Origin: Rhodanobacter sp. FDAARGOS 1247
Lineage (GTDB): Bacteria; Pseudomonadota; Gammaproteobacteria; Xanthomonadales; Rhodanobacteraceae
Direction of reading: 5' to 3'
Assembly (NCBI RefSeq): GCF_016889805.1
Contig: NZ_CP069535.1
Span: forward strand, 1,426,001-1,490,000
DNA: 64,000 nucleotides
Part shown: positions 20 through 36,470 of the stretch, in pieces
Layout of the letters: each line of letters begins with the position of its first letter
How positions within the stretch are numbered: position 1 is the first letter of the stretch
Notes under the pieces: model-generated
Database searches by the model: none
Told to the model about the DNA's origin: nothing
Seen by the model: only the letters and a program-made list of their open reading frames with translations
Position numbers and translations under genes: made by a program

Positions 20-135
20 CTCCCTCCCCTGCGTGCAGGGGAGGGTTGGGGAGGGGTAAGGCTTTTGATCTGGTTTTTGAGACGGAAGTCAAAAGCGTGA
101 CCCCCACCCAACCTCCCCCTGCAAGCAGGGGGAGG
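20..135. repeat. paired GC-rich palindromic repeats forming one long inverted repeat
   Basis: Two copies of a GC-rich palindrome (cccctgc-gt-gcagggg and ccccctgc-aa-gcaggggg) face each other. Between them lie perfect arms GCTTTTGA (61-68) and TCAAAAGC (89-96). The left arm from TGCAGGGG to GCTTTTGA matches the reverse complement of the right arm at most positions, so the whole unit can fold as one large hairpin with smaller hairpins at its base. It sits directly 3' of the metH N-half gene and belongs to the same family as the units near 18.95, 34.45 and 35.83 kb. It may also end transcription, but no T-tract is present. Confidence 0.8.
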
Positions 136-2326: not shown

Positions 2327-3742
<1,416 letters not shown>

Positions 3743-3744
<2 letters not shown>

Positions 3745-4237
3745 ACGGGTCGAGCGAAACCACGCAATCGATGCCCGCCCGAGCCATCTTCACATAGGGA
3801 CAGATGCGTTCGGTGTTGCGCACCAGCTCCTCGGCAATCGCCCGATCGACGTTCGGCAGGCAGATACGAATGTTCGCGGCAAGCATGAACAGGCCATCGA
3901 CGGGGTCCCTGCCGAAGGTGACTTGGGCGACGATTTCGGCGTCCGGAATCGCCACGTTTGCCCGCGTGGCGAGCAGGCTCAATGCGCCATGGAAGCAGGC
4001 GGCGAAACCGGCTGCGAACAATTGCTCCGGGTTGGCGCCGCCGCCTGGTCCGCCCAGTTCCGCGGGCATCCGCAGCCGCACGTCGAGGTTTCCGTCGTCG
4101 GAGCGAGCCACGCCCGATGCACGACCGTGCCGGGATTCACCGCCGTTGACTCGTACGGTCGCCGTGTACAGCGGAAGGAAATCCTGCCCGTAATGCTTGT
4201 CGAGCAGGGAAACAGATGGTGGTCGCAGTTTGGTCAT
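3743..4237 (-). CDS. Ohr/OsmC-type organic hydroperoxide resistance protein
   Basis: This 164-residue OsmC-family thiol peroxidase should reduce organic hydroperoxides in the cytoplasm. The two redox cysteines of the Ohr subfamily are present in NPEQLFAAGFAACFHGAL and in the RICPYVKM segment, and the length is close to the usual ~140-160. The start is taken at MTKLRPPSV (4237) by alignment with the family; a longer reading would run into the GST gene. The two outer bases of its stop codon come from the acyl-CoA dehydrogenase repeat, so the C-terminus may have been reset at that junction. It is the last gene of the SDR-GST-ohr operon, which fits a stress role. Confidence 0.85.
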
Positions 4238-18897: not shown

Positions 18898-18941
18898 GCT
18901 GCCCGCACTGAGGGTTCGGCGCGGCGTGGACCCCACCCCTT

Positions 18942-19057
18942 CCCTCCCCTGCCAGCAGGGGAGGGTGTCCCGGCACGATCCAGCTTCGCCTCTGTTTGGC
19001 TTTGCCCCCCCTGCTTGCCCCAAAGGGACTTCCTTCGGTCGCAGGGGGAGGTTGGGA
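18942..19057. repeat. palindromic repeat cluster between gdhB and nadK
   Basis: A perfect hairpin CCCTCCCCTGC-CA-GCAGGGGAGGG (18942-18965) is followed by a second, wider unit: CCCCCTGC (19007-19014) and GCAGGGGG (19041-19048), continuing AGGTTGGGAGGGGGT. The second unit's loop is enlarged by a 26-bp segment containing CCCCAAAGGGACTTCC. The same family occurs at 20-135, 34434-34469 and 35821-35857. Confidence 0.85.
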
Positions 19058-32238: not shown

Positions 32239-35200
32239 TCAGCCCGGTCGGCGCGCGCCCAGCAGCACCAGCACTTCCTGCGCGCTGCGGATGCGCTCGC
32301 TGGCGCCGGGCAGGTCGAGGACCACCTTCAGCTTGTCCTGGCCGTCCAGCTTGTACACGCGGGGCAGTTGCTGGATCAGCTTGATGATCGCCATCGGGTC
32401 GATCTCGGGTTTCTCGCGGAAGGTGATGCGACCGCCGTTGGTACCGAAATCCAGCTTGCGGATACCCAGCGGAGTGGCCATCAGCTTCAGGCTGGCCACC
32501 GCGAACAATTGCTTGGTGGCATCGGGCAGCAGGCCGAAGCGGTCGATCATCTCCACCTGCAGGTCGCGCAGGTCGTCCTCGCTGCGGGCGCTGGCGATGC
32601 GCTTGTACAGGGTCAGGCGGTGATGCACGTCGCCCAGGTAATCGTCGGGGATCAGCGCAGGCAGGTGCAGCTCGACTTCGGTCTCGTGCTCGGAGCTCAG
32701 GTCGAAATCCGGCACCTTGCCGGACTTCAGCGCGCGTACCGCCCGATCGAGCAGCTCGGTGTAGAGGCCGAAGCCGATCTCCTGGATCTGGCCGGACTGC
32801 TCGTCGCCGAGCAGTTCGCCGGCGCCGCGGATTTCCAGGTCGTGGGTGGCCAGGGTGAAACCGGCGCCGAGTTCCTCCAGCGAGGCGAGTGCTTCCAGCC
32901 GCTTCTGCGCATCGGCGGTGATCGACTTGCGGTCGGGCACCACCAGGTACGCATATGCGCGGTGATGCGAGCGACCCACGCGACCGCGCAGCTGATGCAG
33001 CTGGGCCAGGCCGAAGTGGTCGGCGCGGTTGATGATGATGGTGTTGGCGCTGGGGATGTCGATGCCGGTTTCGATGATCGTGGTGCACACCAGCACGTTG
33101 AAGCGCTGGCGGTGGAAATCCGCCATCACGCCTTCCAGTTCGCGCTCGGGCATCTGGCCGTGGGCGATGCGGATGCGCGCCTCGGGCACCAGTTCCTCCA
33201 GTTCGCGCACGATCCGCTCGATGCTCTGCACCTCGTTGTGCAGGAAGTACACCTGGCCGCCGCGCGACAGCTCGCGCTGCAGCGCCTCGCGGATCGTCGC
33301 CGGGTCCCACGCCGAGATGAAGGTGCGCACGGCGCTGCGATGCGCCGGTGGCGTGGCGATCAATGAAAGATCGCGCAGGCCGGCCATCGCCATGTTCAAG
33401 GTGCGTGGGATCGGCGTGGCGGTCATCGTCAGCAGGTCGACCTCGGCACGCAGCTTCTTCAGCTGCTCCTTCTGGCGCACGCCGAAACGCTGTTCTTCGT
33501 CGACGATCACCAGGCCCAGGTTCTTGAACCGAATGTCCGGCTGCAGCAGCTTGTGGGTGCCCACGATCACGTCGATCTGGCCGTCGGCGAGGCGCTTCAG
33601 CGCCTCGTTCACTTCCTTGGTCGACTTGAAGCGCGACAGCACGTCGACCCGCACCGGCCAGTCGGCGAAGCGGTCGGCGAAGTTGCGATAGTGCTGCTGG
33701 GCGAGCAGGGTGGTCGGCACCAGCACGGCGACCTGCTTGCCCGCGGTGGCGGTGGCGAACGCGGCGCGCAGGGCGACCTCGGTCTTGCCGAAACCCACGT
33801 CGCCGCAGATCACCCGGTCCATCGCGCGGGGCGCGGCCAGATCCTCCAGCACCGCCTCGATCGCGGTTTCCTGGTCGGGGGTTTCCTCGAACGGAAAGGT
33901 GCTGCCGAACTGTTCGACCATCTGCCGGTCGATCGGCATCGACTCGCCGCCACGGGCCTGGCGCTGGGCGTAGATCGCCAGCAGTTCGGCGGCCACGTCG
34001 CGCACTTTTTCCGCGGCCTTCCGGCGCGCGCGTTCCCACGCATCGCCGCCCAGCGAATGCAGCGGCGCCAGTTCCGGCGCGGTGCCGGAGTAGCGGCTGA
34101 CCAGGCCCAGCTGTGCGACGGGCACATAGAGCTTGTCGCCCTTGGCGTATTCGACGGTGAGGAACTCGCCATCCATGCCGCCCACGTCCATCGAGGCCAG
34201 GCCCTGGTAGCGGCCCACGCCGTGATCCACGTGCACGATCGGTGCGCCGATGGTGAGCTCGGTGAGGTCGCGGATGATGCTTTCCGGATCGCGCGCGGTG
34301 CCACGGCGGCGCTTGCGGTCGCGCTCGCTGCGCACCCGCTCGCCGTAGAGTTCGCGCTCGGTGAGCACGGCGAGCGCGGGCCTGGTCAGCGCAAAGCCCT
34401 GTTCCAGCGGCGCGATGGTGATCGCGAACTTGACTCCCTCCCCTGCTTGCAGGGGAGGGTTGGGGAGGAGAAAAGCGCCCCAGCCCTCGATGACTTCGGG
34501 CTTCAATCCCGCTGCTGCCAGCGTCTCGATCAGCGCCTCGCGTCGCCCCGCCGAATCCGCGGCGATCAGCACGCGGCCTGGATAGCTGGACAGGAAATGC
34601 CGCAGCGACGTGCCGGGTTCCTCACCCTTGCGATTGAGCGGCAGCTCCGGCGCCGGCTGGGTGCCGGTGTCGACGGCGTGCTCGTGGCTGGCTTCGACCA
34701 CTTCCACCCGCAGCCGCCTGTTGAGCTGTTCGCGCAGTTTCTCCGGCGGCAGGTAGAGCTCGGCCGGCGGCAGCACCGGGCGCTCGATGTCGTGCGCGCG
34801 CTGGTCGTAGCGTTCGGCGGTCTGCGTCCAGAACTGCTCGGCCGCTTCGCCGGCGCCTTCGCCCAGCACGAACAGCGCGTCGTCGGCGAGGTAGTCGAAC
34901 AGCGTGGCGGTTTGTTTGAAGAATAAAGGCAGGTAGTACTCGATGCCGCCGGGCGTGACGCCTTCCTTCATGTCCTGGTACAGCGGGCAGCGACGCACGT
35001 CGATCGGGAAGCGTTCGCGCAGGTTGCCCCGGAATTCCTTCGCCGCTTCGTCGGTCAGCGGAAATTCGCGCGCCGGCAGCAGCTCGACCTTGTCCACCTG
35101 CTGCTGCGAGCGCTGGGTTTCCGGATCGAAGCTGCGGATCGAATCCACCTCATCGTCGAACAGCTCGATGCGATACGGCTCGGCCGTGCCCATCGGGAAA

Positions 35201-35718
35201 ACGTCGAGCAGGGCGCCGCGCACGGCGAAGTCACCGGGCTCGGCCACCTGGGGCACGTGACGGTAACCGGAGGCCTCAAGTCGGCGCTGTTCGGCGGCCA
35301 GGTCGAACTTCTGGCCCCTGGACAGCACCAGCCCGGAACCGGTGATGTGTGAGCGCGGCGCGATCCGCTGCATCAGCGTGGCGATCGGCACCACCAGCAC
35401 GCCGCGCTTCACGCCGGGCAACTGGTACAAGGTGGCGATGCGCTGCGAGACGATCTCCGGATGCGGGCTGAACACGTCGTAGGGCAGTGTTTCCCAGTCC
35501 GGGAAATGCAGCACCGGCAGGCCGCCGGCGAAGATCTTCAGCTCCGATTCGAGCGCCTGGGCGCGCTGGGTGTCGCGGGTCACCGCCACCAGCAGGCCTT
35601 CGTGCGAACGCGCCGCTTCGGCAATCAGCAGCGCCCGGCCGGAGCCGTGGGGCGGCGTCCAGTAGCGGCGTTGCTTCGGGGTGGTCGGCAGGGGCGGGTG
35701 TTTGATCGGGCTGGTCAT
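32239..35718 (-). CDS. mfd: transcription-repair coupling factor Mfd
   Basis: This 1159-residue DNA translocase removes stalled RNA polymerase and recruits UvrA. The UvrB-like N-terminus (residues ~10-340) includes FPDWETLPYDVFSPHPE. The RNAP-interacting domain precedes the RecG-like motor, with GDVGFGKTEVALRAAF (Walker A), VDEEQRFGV (motif II) and LRGRVGRSHHRAYAYL (motif VI), then the TRCF C-terminal domain. The start at 35718 (MTSPIKHPP) is chosen by homology; the frame stays open far upstream only because of GC bias. Residues ~417-428 come from an inserted palindromic repeat (34434-34469). Confidence 0.96.
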   Translation of the reverse strand: MTSPIKHPPLPTTPKQRRYWTPPHGSGRALLIAEAARSHEGLLVAVTRDTQRAQALESELKIFAGGLPVLHFPDWETLPYDVFSPHPEIVSQRIATLYQLPGVKRGVLVVPIATLMQRIAPRSHITGSGLVLSRGQKFDLAAEQRRLEASGYRHVPQVAEPGDFAVRGALLDVFPMGTAEPYRIELFDDEVDSIRSFDPETQRSQQQVDKVELLPAREFPLTDEAAKEFRGNLRERFPIDVRRCPLYQDMKEGVTPGGIEYYLPLFFKQTATLFDYLADDALFVLGEGAGEAAEQFWTQTAERYDQRAHDIERPVLPPAELYLPPEKLREQLNRRLRVEVVEASHEHAVDTGTQPAPELPLNRKGEEPGTSLRHFLSSYPGRVLIAADSAGRREALIETLAAAGLKPEVIEGWGAFLLPNPPLQAGEGVKFAITIAPLEQGFALTRPALAVLTERELYGERVRSERDRKRRRGTARDPESIIRDLTELTIGAPIVHVDHGVGRYQGLASMDVGGMDGEFLTVEYAKGDKLYVPVAQLGLVSRYSGTAPELAPLHSLGGDAWERARRKAAEKVRDVAAELLAIYAQRQARGGESMPIDRQMVEQFGSTFPFEETPDQETAIEAVLEDLAAPRAMDRVICGDVGFGKTEVALRAAFATATAGKQVAVLVPTTLLAQQHYRNFADRFADWPVRVDVLSRFKSTKEVNEALKRLADGQIDVIVGTHKLLQPDIRFKNLGLVIVDEEQRFGVRQKEQLKKLRAEVDLLTMTATPIPRTLNMAMAGLRDLSLIATPPAHRSAVRTFISAWDPATIREALQRELSRGGQVYFLHNEVQSIERIVRELEELVPEARIRIAHGQMPERELEGVMADFHRQRFNVLVCTTIIETGIDIPSANTIIINRADHFGLAQLHQLRGRVGRSHHRAYAYLVVPDRKSITADAQKRLEALASLEELGAGFTLATHDLEIRGAGELLGDEQSGQIQEIGFGLYTELLDRAVRALKSGKVPDFDLSSEHETEVELHLPALIPDDYLGDVHHRLTLYKRIASARSEDDLRDLQVEMIDRFGLLPDATKQLFAVASLKLMATPLGIRKLDFGTNGGRITFREKPEIDPMAIIKLIQQLPRVYKLDGQDKLKVVLDLPGASERIRSAQEVLVLLGARRPG
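34434..34469 (-). repeat. palindromic repeat inserted in frame within mfd
   Basis: CCCTCCCCTGC-TT-GCAGGGGAGGG (34436-34459) plus the TTGGGGAGGAG tail is the same family as the intergenic repeats at 20, 18942 and 35821. Here it is 36 bp, so 12 codons. On the mfd strand it reads LLPNPPLQAGEGV between AFL and KFAIT, a stretch not expected in Mfd. The frame is kept on both sides. Confidence 0.9.
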
Positions 35719-35820: not shown

Positions 35821-35857
35821 CTCCCTCCCATGCAAGCAGGGGAGGGCCGGTGGGGTA
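35821..35857. repeat. palindromic repeat between mfd and a GNAT gene
   Basis: CCCTCCCATGC-AA-GCAGGGGAGGG (35823-35846) has one mismatch in its 11-bp stem, followed by CCGGTGGGGTAG. It lies 7 bp from the end of the GNAT gene and belongs to the window's repeat family. Confidence 0.85.
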
Positions 35858-35864
35858 GAGCCTT

Positions 35865-36470
35865 TCAGAGCTTCAGGGTGATCTGCGCCGTGCCCGGTTC
35901 GTCCGGCATCATCCGCTGGGTGAAGCCCAGCTCCCGGCACAGTTGCAGCATCGGCCGGTTCTCCAGCAGCACGTAGCCCCACAGCTCGGCGAGGCCGCGG
36001 CGGCGGCAGTCGTCGACCAGCCGCTGCATCAGCAGGGCGCCCAGGCCACGGCGGCTCCAGTCCTGCTCCACCAGCACCGAGAACTCGGCGCTGTCGGTGG
36101 CCTCGTCGACATAGATCCGGCCCACGCCACGCATCTCGGCCGGTTGCTCGGACTCGTCCATCAGCACGCAGGCGGTTTCGAGCGCGGGGTCGATGCGGCA
36201 CAGGCGCTGGGCCATCGGTGCGGGCAGCTCGGACATCGCATGCAGGAAGCGGCGGCGGATGTCTTCCGGCGACAGTCGGGTGAAGCAGCGCTGCATCGCG
36301 GCCACGTCGCCGGCCTCGATCGGGCGCAGTACCAGCTCCCGTCCATCCTGGGTATGCACCTGCTCGCCCCGTGGGGACGGCGCCACGCGGGGACGGGCGA
36401 AGCGTTCGCTGCTGCGCGGCGGCAGTGCGGCGTAGCGGGTGGGGGCGGCGAAGTCGATGGCAGGGATCAT
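35865..36470 (-). CDS. GNAT-family N-acetyltransferase
   Basis: The 201-residue protein has an extra N-terminal ~40 residues before the acetyltransferase fold (LVLRPIEAGDVAAMQRCFTRLSPEDIRRRF). The acetyl-CoA loop is VEQDWSRRGLGALLMQRLVDDCRRRGL. ENRPMLQLCRELGF closes the fold. This resembles the acetyltransferase domain of Pat-type protein acetylases, but no regulatory domain is present. GGAG precedes the ATG at 36470; TTGCAA-N17-CACAAT (36520-36492) is a weak promoter candidate. The substrate is unknown. Confidence 0.88.
   Translation of the reverse strand: MIPAIDFAAPTRYAALPPRSSERFARPRVAPSPRGEQVHTQDGRELVLRPIEAGDVAAMQRCFTRLSPEDIRRRFLHAMSELPAPMAQRLCRIDPALETACVLMDESEQPAEMRGVGRIYVDEATDSAEFSVLVEQDWSRRGLGALLMQRLVDDCRRRGLAELWGYVLLENRPMLQLCRELGFTQRMMPDEPGTAQITLKL

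Follow-up and report, generated by a model that had tools for sequence, protein, structure and literature searches.

Rickettsia palindromic elements (RPEs) are palindromic repeats that are kept in frame inside functional proteins. RPEs are among the systems cited in the study of GTAG and CGTC REPs by Di Nocera, De Gregorio and Rocco (2013; PMC3733652), which, in the parts of it available, describes such repeats inside genes, more than half of them as dimers or groups, with many of the intragenic copies in DNA synthesis and repair genes. The same parts report that recB of X. campestris and recB of X. oryzae hold different REPs at about the same site, suggest loops and linkers as tolerated places, and speculate on mutators arising via REPs in repair genes. 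Mfd is absent from the available main text, Additional file 3 of that paper may list an mfd case, and our literature search, covering titles and abstracts, found no paper on REP insertion in Mfd or its loop.

Here we follow a palindromic repeat in the mfd gene of one Rhodanobacter genome through the genus, the bacterial family and beyond. Our reading, to which we assign a probability of about 0.77, is that a loop in domain D3 of Mfd in Rhodanobacteraceae is a tolerant and recurrent REP landing site, seeded by two-unit elements that are then trimmed with the frame kept.

Results

A palindromic repeat in frame in mfd

The window is the whole stretch of DNA that was analysed, 64,000 nucleotides long; its genome is referred to as G000, and 'family C' is a label coined here for its repeat. 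The features concerned are as follows.

32239 to 35718, minus strand: mfd, transcription-repair coupling factor, 1159 aa (translation, homology and profile matches)
34348 to 34596, minus strand: Mfd domain D3, holding the insertion loop (Pfam PF21132 match, residues 375-457; coordinates from codon positions)
34432 to 34470, minus strand: REP-derived 39 nt of family C, one unit and the probable edge of a lost partner, encoding LLPNPPLQAGEGV, residues 417-429
20 to 62, plus strand: family C unit whose tail reads GTTGGGGAGGGG, no coding signal across
18941 to 18966, minus strand (from the tail): family C core copy, no coding signal across
35821 to 35863, plus strand: degraded family C copy, lying between the start of mfd (35718) and the ORF that follows (35865-36470, minus strand)

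The window Mfd matches the E. coli Mfd structures (phmmer; E reported as 0), the NCBIfam transcription-repair coupling factor above its cut-off, and the Pfam families TRCF, UvrB_inter, MFD_D3, CarD_TRCF_RID, DEAD and Helicase_C. Read on the minus strand from 34470 to 34432, the repeat is CTCCTCCCCAACCCTCCCCTGCAAGCAGGGGAGGGAGTC. A first-pass annotation had proposed an in-frame palindromic repeat at this place in mfd, tolerated as peptide, and the window coordinates and the translation bear this out. Its in-frame unit also stands, but not the size of 36 bp or about 12 residues, the true repeat-derived stretch being 39 nt (13 codons). The insert had also been placed in a linker of the repair motor; it is not between domains but inside MFD_D3, at E. 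coli Mfd residues about 415-424 (counted manually from the alignment). The variability of the loop, its alignment to E. coli Mfd and a statement on D3 in PMC7864632 together suggest that it is exposed. A known structured RNA element was ruled out for window 34300-34600, where Rfam gave two sub-threshold matches only and nothing above the gathering score.

The three further places in the window to which the same palindrome family had been assigned were recovered, with the core at 21-46, 18941-18966 and 35822-35847; no coding signal runs across the first two. Over the 26-nt core, identity to the copy at 21-46 is 96% for the Mfd copy, 92% for 18941-18966 and 85% for 35822-35847. Elsewhere in the window, at 3400-3825, a 142-nt unit is present in three tandem copies (100, 98 and 66% identity to the first).

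Across the 3.92-Mb genome the palindromic core, searched with up to 2 mismatches allowed, gave 49 forward and 50 reverse matches, that is about 50 places for a palindrome, and the reversed-pattern control gave 0. Read by eye from 56 rows, in which one place occurs twice, the unit is about GCTCCCTCCCCTGCNNGCAGGGGAGGGTTGGGGTGGGGTCGCTCTTGATC and carries an asymmetric tail. Coding signal was found on both sides of 3 of the 56 cores in the fetched stretches: in mfd, in a lipoyl-domain dihydrolipoyl dehydrogenase and in a polyphosphate kinase 2 frame. The last of these precedes the kinase domain (residues 98-318 of the frame), and the gene probably starts downstream of it; the remaining cores are called intergenic from absent coding signal, not from annotation. 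Family C is thus of the REP/BIME type: a short imperfect palindrome in tens of copies, mostly between genes, some of them inverted pairs (in G000 at L034, L042, L048 and L060, and in the Mfd of the sister genome G042), the window mfd copy being single. Neither an unpaired GTAG nor an unpaired CGTC motif at the hairpin end is present in its consensus, GCTCCCTCCCCTGCNNGCAGGGGAGGGTTGGGGTGGGGTCGCTC, which places it outside both of those REP superfamilies. Its alignment to a CGTC insert is no better than chance (141/300 shuffles reach the score) and the score of its alignment to GTAG repeats is reached by 235/300.

The window copy as a probable remnant of a two-unit element

In sister G042 (Mfd listed under Rhodanobacter spathiphylli), two C-type units separated by a spacer occupy the same place in Mfd. 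Deletion of 72 nt between the two copies of a 7-nt direct repeat, CCTCCCC, in the G042 form reproduces the window sequence, 42 nt being compared with a single mismatch. The architecture of the G042 insert matches the family C pairs elsewhere in the G000 genome, and pairs of the same design are present in the Mfd of several other species. Judged from these alignments, the window repeat is probably the leftover of a two-unit element, and the wide spread of the pair points to a loss in the window lineage rather than a gain in the sister. The capture of a 36-bp unit by this single gene, as first proposed, has to be given up: with the full pair kept in the sister and other palindrome families filling the same place in many other species, a lone 36-bp insertion is ruled out.

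A decay series can be laid out among 120 Mfd proteins (the best listed of 1859 hits; 2 of the 120 loops failed the parser), running from pairs through single units and footprints to drifted forms such as LPQEAAEGIK, the latter by reading. The window peptide is not a conserved feature of Mfd proteins that lack the repeat family: insert-free short loops are unlike it, and peptides that resemble it in other Mfd read, by eye, as decayed forms of the same insert.

An assembly artefact, or a chance resemblance to a repeat, has a practically negligible probability. Contigs do end at or near the site in G010, G099 and perhaps G125, but the same loop recurs in P0002 and P0003, two further Mfd proteins listed from different contigs, the sister carries the pair, and the single-contig genome G044 carries an insert; the further proteins together with G044 rule out the artefact that the first-pass annotation had allowed for. 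The zero count of the reversed-pattern control argues against chance resemblance. As an observation apart, assemblies break at the Mfd loop itself (G010 contigs C25 and C109; G099 contig C33), so that the repeat may cause Mfd to appear as two partial genes in draft genomes.

Loop content across Rhodanobacter

All 45 genomes of the genus set matched the Mfd query and 42 loops were readable, the others being G036, G037 (residues 1-200 only) and G041 (best match, by reading, a RecG-like helicase). Clear palindromic repeats occupy 18 of the 42 loops, and 3 more are decayed (G011, G019, G032); the rest are 12 loops of 7-8 residues and 9 unclassed loops of 10-27 residues. Sorted by eye, the 18 clear inserts fall into four families.

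Family C in the Mfd loop: 7 genomes (G000, G042, G003, G002, G044, G008, G010)
GTAG REPs in the Mfd loop: 4 genomes (G012, G016, G017, G021), peptide such as VGAASAATG...AAEAAPT
CGTC REPs in the Mfd loop: 4 genomes (G014, G015, G028, G043), peptide such as RHPGESRDP...FRRNDE
Family D (our own label), CCTCTCCCCCG...CGGGGGAGAGG, in the Mfd loop: 3 genomes (G013, G020, G031)

These are three unrelated kinds, C and D being alike (their alignment score is reached by 0/300 shuffles). Most clear inserts consist of two inverted REP units. A palindrome with a GTAG-type end was found in the inserts of G012, G016, G017, G021 and G122; the ends read GTAGGAGC...GCTCCTAC in G012, G016 and G122, with the 3' end of G016 decayed to GCTCCTATA, and GTGGGAGC in G021, and the end is altered in G017. 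The four of these that belong to the genus, G012, G016, G017 and G021, have many genomic copies of GTAG repeats. CGTC-type ends and palindromes are found in G014, G015, G028, G043 and others as CGTCATCCCGGCGAAAGCCGGGAT-type units with a ...GGAATGACG partner, and genomic copies are present, with a control of 0. In one further Mfd loop (L089, G053) tandem RHP(D/G)H(G/D) units (RHPDHGRHPGHDRHPGHDRHPGEGRDP) are seen, which looks like an in-frame duplication of a piece of a CGTC repeat.

Where the insert is clear, loop length ranges from 14 to 60 residues in the genus and reaches 74 in another genus; insert-free loops measure 7-8 residues in the genus and 6-11 in most other genera. The fold energy of all 18 clear inserts lies below that of dinucleotide shuffles (z from -2.6 to -9.9). 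Nine of the decayed or unclassed loops had sufficient length for folding; eight of these are at z +1.1 to -1.2, and G011 is at -2.6. In an alignment of 28 Rhodanobacter and Frateuria Mfd proteins the D3 loop is the main internal length variation; only one other is large, with 0 to 19 residues added around residue 267, and two small ones, of 3-5 columns, are at about 465 and 1103. No mfd broken at the loop was seen, split matches having both pieces in one open frame except where contigs end. Away from the loop, the Mfd of L082 (G011) comes in two pieces in different frames, with the break at residues about 676-709, either a frameshift or an assembly error.

Loop content beyond the genus

Of the 55 loops read from other genera of the bacterial family, 14 hold a clear insert and 5 a decayed one; since the 60 genomes fetched, of 127, were enriched for split or long matches with some normal ones added, 19/55 is not a frequency. 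The five fetched genomes left out, for parsing or contig ends, are G099, G125, G152, G110 and G068. At the level of the order, repeat-like inserts are present in G183, G250, G258 and G262, all of another bacterial family, among 20 genomes fetched of 141 searched; these 20 were picked in the same manner, and 14 of them did not pass the parser and were judged by eye only. At the level of the class, 131 of 143 genomes matched Mfd and no REP-like split was seen, partial matches such as those of G290, G346, G361 and G430 being left aside. In the only class-level genome with two Mfd pieces, G411, these lie on separate contigs, and the 20 class-level loops that were read are all short. In this sample the site seems confined to Xanthomonadales.

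Turnover of the loop on gene trees

Two trees were used, one of mfd without the loop for 42 members of the genus, in which 13 of 39 branches are open, and one of the Mfd protein for 97 species of the bacterial family. Because C and D proved related, changes were recounted with the two merged. The loop states need 17 changes on the genus tree, and likewise with C and D merged. On the 97-species tree the loop content needs 35 changes with C and D apart and 34 with them merged; the figure falls to 29 once eight decayed inserts, together with the single unit in G059, are scored as none. Well-supported branches alone force at least 8 gains or losses for CGTC, 7 for C/D and 2 for GTAG. Sister pairs can be unlike: G012 has a GTAG insert and G014 a CGTC insert (support 99), and G008 has C and G043 has CGTC (support 97). 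The filled state is clustered on the tree (0/500 shuffles as low), and some lineages are therefore prone to filled loops. The identity of the family is hardly clustered, with 34 changes against a shuffle mean of 36.7 and a value as low in 24/200.

With 2 copies subtracted from each carrier, Mfd carriers are richer in their own family genome-wide (one-sided p, kinship ignored: C 0.0002, GTAG 0.001, CGTC 0.009); carriers of family D are not richer in D copies once the Mfd copies are subtracted (p 0.21). Empty loops also occur in species that have many C copies (43 in G006, 29 in G007), so copy number alone does not decide filling.

The counts of changes are blind to gain versus loss, some apparent gains could be pieces of mfd acquired by horizontal transfer, and the flanks common to several CGTC or C inserts suggest that some of these are one old insertion kept or lost. 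Taken further, this becomes an alternative in which a few old insertions were spread among species by homologous recombination of mfd, so that the changes on the trees are transfers and the loops a mosaic made by allele exchange. It draws on the 3' flank letters common to the CGTC inserts of G014, G015 and G043, on the common frame, order and edge of family C inserts in several genera, and on the partly weak branches of the genus tree. However, three unrelated repeat kinds imply no fewer than three insertions, the tree was built from mfd itself, with sequence directly adjoining the loop, and exchange alone would not make carriers of C, GTAG and CGTC rich in their own family elsewhere. We regard this alternative as possible, if unlikely.

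Because no target-site duplication was recognised (flanks of the printed loops, by eye) and no empty/filled pair was found within one species, insertion itself is an event that we infer. The repeated use of one place in many species might also reflect a mobilising enzyme that recognises a DNA motif in mfd, in which case target preference and not tolerance would be the cause. Nevertheless, the exact codon of entry between the WxxF and FAIT motifs varies slightly among families with different ends, no common flanking letters were seen in the printed loops (by eye), and a linker in a second protein is filled as well; target preference is in our judgement very unlikely.

Other sites with repeat-like inserts

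That second protein is the dihydrolipoyl dehydrogenase, whose lipoyl linker in G000 carries a family C unit. It and a second site within Mfd are located as follows.

L036 2128 to 3954 (G000:C1 about 583127 to 584953), plus strand; genus loci L289 to L318: dihydrolipoyl dehydrogenase, lipoyl domain and E3
Mfd residue about 267, loci for example L071, L077, L079, L024 and L027, and in another genus L090, L098, L102, L105 and L107: second in-frame insert

In the E3 linkers of 30 genus loci (the best 30 of 44 matched genomes), 17 are repeat-like by eye (5 of family C, 4 and 8 of two other types) and 13 are Ala/Pro-rich. The median fold z is -2.6, -5.2 and -5.3 for the repeat-like types and -0.5 for the Ala/Pro-rich linkers; the exceptions are G018, one of the 17, with no pattern match and z -1.5, and two of the 13, at z -2.1 and -2.9. 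The insert at Mfd residue about 267 adds 15-19 residues such as PVKSPHMDVRGVAEDPHTGT in several species and is absent in others. Its DNA is palindromic (AGTCCGCACATGGATGTGCGGGG...) and its repeat is the low-copy AGTCCGCACATGGATGTGCGGGGTGTTGCGGAGGATCCGCA, which, when up to 2 mismatches are allowed, is matched one to three times in each of 23 genomes out of 45 (control 0); the only match in G013 and one of those in G043 are the Mfd copies themselves.

These sites bear on whether the inserts are selected. The length or disorder of the D3 loop might tune Mfd release, loading or UvrA recruitment, or a hairpin in the mRNA or DNA might lower mfd expression. Recurrence at one small loop is striking, the second palindromic insert at residue about 267 is in the same protein, and the available parts of PMC3733652 put many intragenic REPs in replication and repair genes. 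Yet a lipoyl linker, in a protein without a repair role, is filled in a similar manner (17/30 loci), the Mfd inserts are diverse in family, sequence and length and are absent from many species. Selection for the inserts is thus rather improbable. Because the E3 linker is filled in this way, our evidence points to a general tolerance of exposed linkers rather than a repair-specific effect. A bolder version, in which REPs are a standing supply of in-frame linker cassettes (Mfd D3, residue about 267, lipoyl-E3) that are rewritten by whichever family is active, and in which changes of the loop alter the repair motor and are selected, is a speculation that we hold to be doubtful.

RAYT-like genes

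Dispersal, pairs and turnover suggest that the repeats would enter by transposition. We read 16 RAYT-like (PF01797) loci in 14 genomes. GTAG repeats lie on both sides of the gene in three of them (G003, G016 and G031; L269, L275 and L286), with 9 to 13 matches in about 5 kb; in G012 a GTAG pair lies on one side, and 12 of the 16 are without any tested repeat. The only PF01797 gene found in G000 (L270, G000:C1:165752-166075) matches Pfam Y1_Tnp above the cut-off and NCBIfam REP_Tyr_transpos below it (69.6 vs 80), and none of the tested repeats occurs within the 6-kb stretch around it. For families C and CGTC, no transposase was tied to the repeats in the loci read.

Discussion

Recurrent landing and trimming of REPs in a tolerant D3 loop can be put as a sequence of steps. 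A two-unit element, i.e., two hairpins in opposite orientation, would land in the loop from the current repeat stock of the genome. Only events that keep the frame and are free of stops would survive, Mfd being under selection. Deletions between short direct repeats would then trim the pair to one unit and the unit to footprints, which would drift until unrecognisable as repeats, and another family could fill the loop later. The window copy would represent the trimmed stage. Neutral tolerance would be the reason that inserts persist, and the order of the last two steps, trimming and refilling, is the one we infer.

The locus offers a comparative system, with one loop, many close species, several repeat families and intermediates of gain and decay. 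The natural empty, filled and decayed alleles of Mfd can be used to ask whether the inserts are neutral or alter transcription-coupled repair. They also trace a concrete route from mobile non-coding repeats to ordinary-looking protein sequence: in the Mfd of Rhodanobacter's bacterial family, which are soil bacteria, dispersed repeats are raw material for protein loops. A practical warning follows for GC-rich bacteria, in which length-variable, low-complexity linkers may be decayed repeats.

The likeness to RPEs, drawn by the first-pass annotation, is one of behaviour and not of sequence. It holds insofar as a palindrome in frame inside a gene is tolerated as peptide, and fails for a lone 36-bp capture, since several families fill the loop; unlike RPEs, the repeats are in other taxa, and what recurs here is the place of insertion, the repeat family at that place changing. 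REPINs and BIMEs share with most clear Mfd inserts the two inverted REP units, and the GTAG repeats that flank RAYT-like genes in G003, G016 and G031 resemble the RAYT systems, whereas the window copy is single and no RAYT link was found for family C in the 16 loci read. The intragenic GTAG and CGTC REPs are, in the available parts of PMC3733652, likewise short palindromic repeats in genes, including repair genes, that often occur as dimers and, in recB, recur at about the same site. The present case differs from those in that a single loop hosts several families over many genera, in that its content turns over between sister species and shows a series of decay, and in that family C has neither a GTAG nor a CGTC end. 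REPs in repair genes are a known kind; the recurrent, multi-family and decaying form in a single protein loop is the new part.
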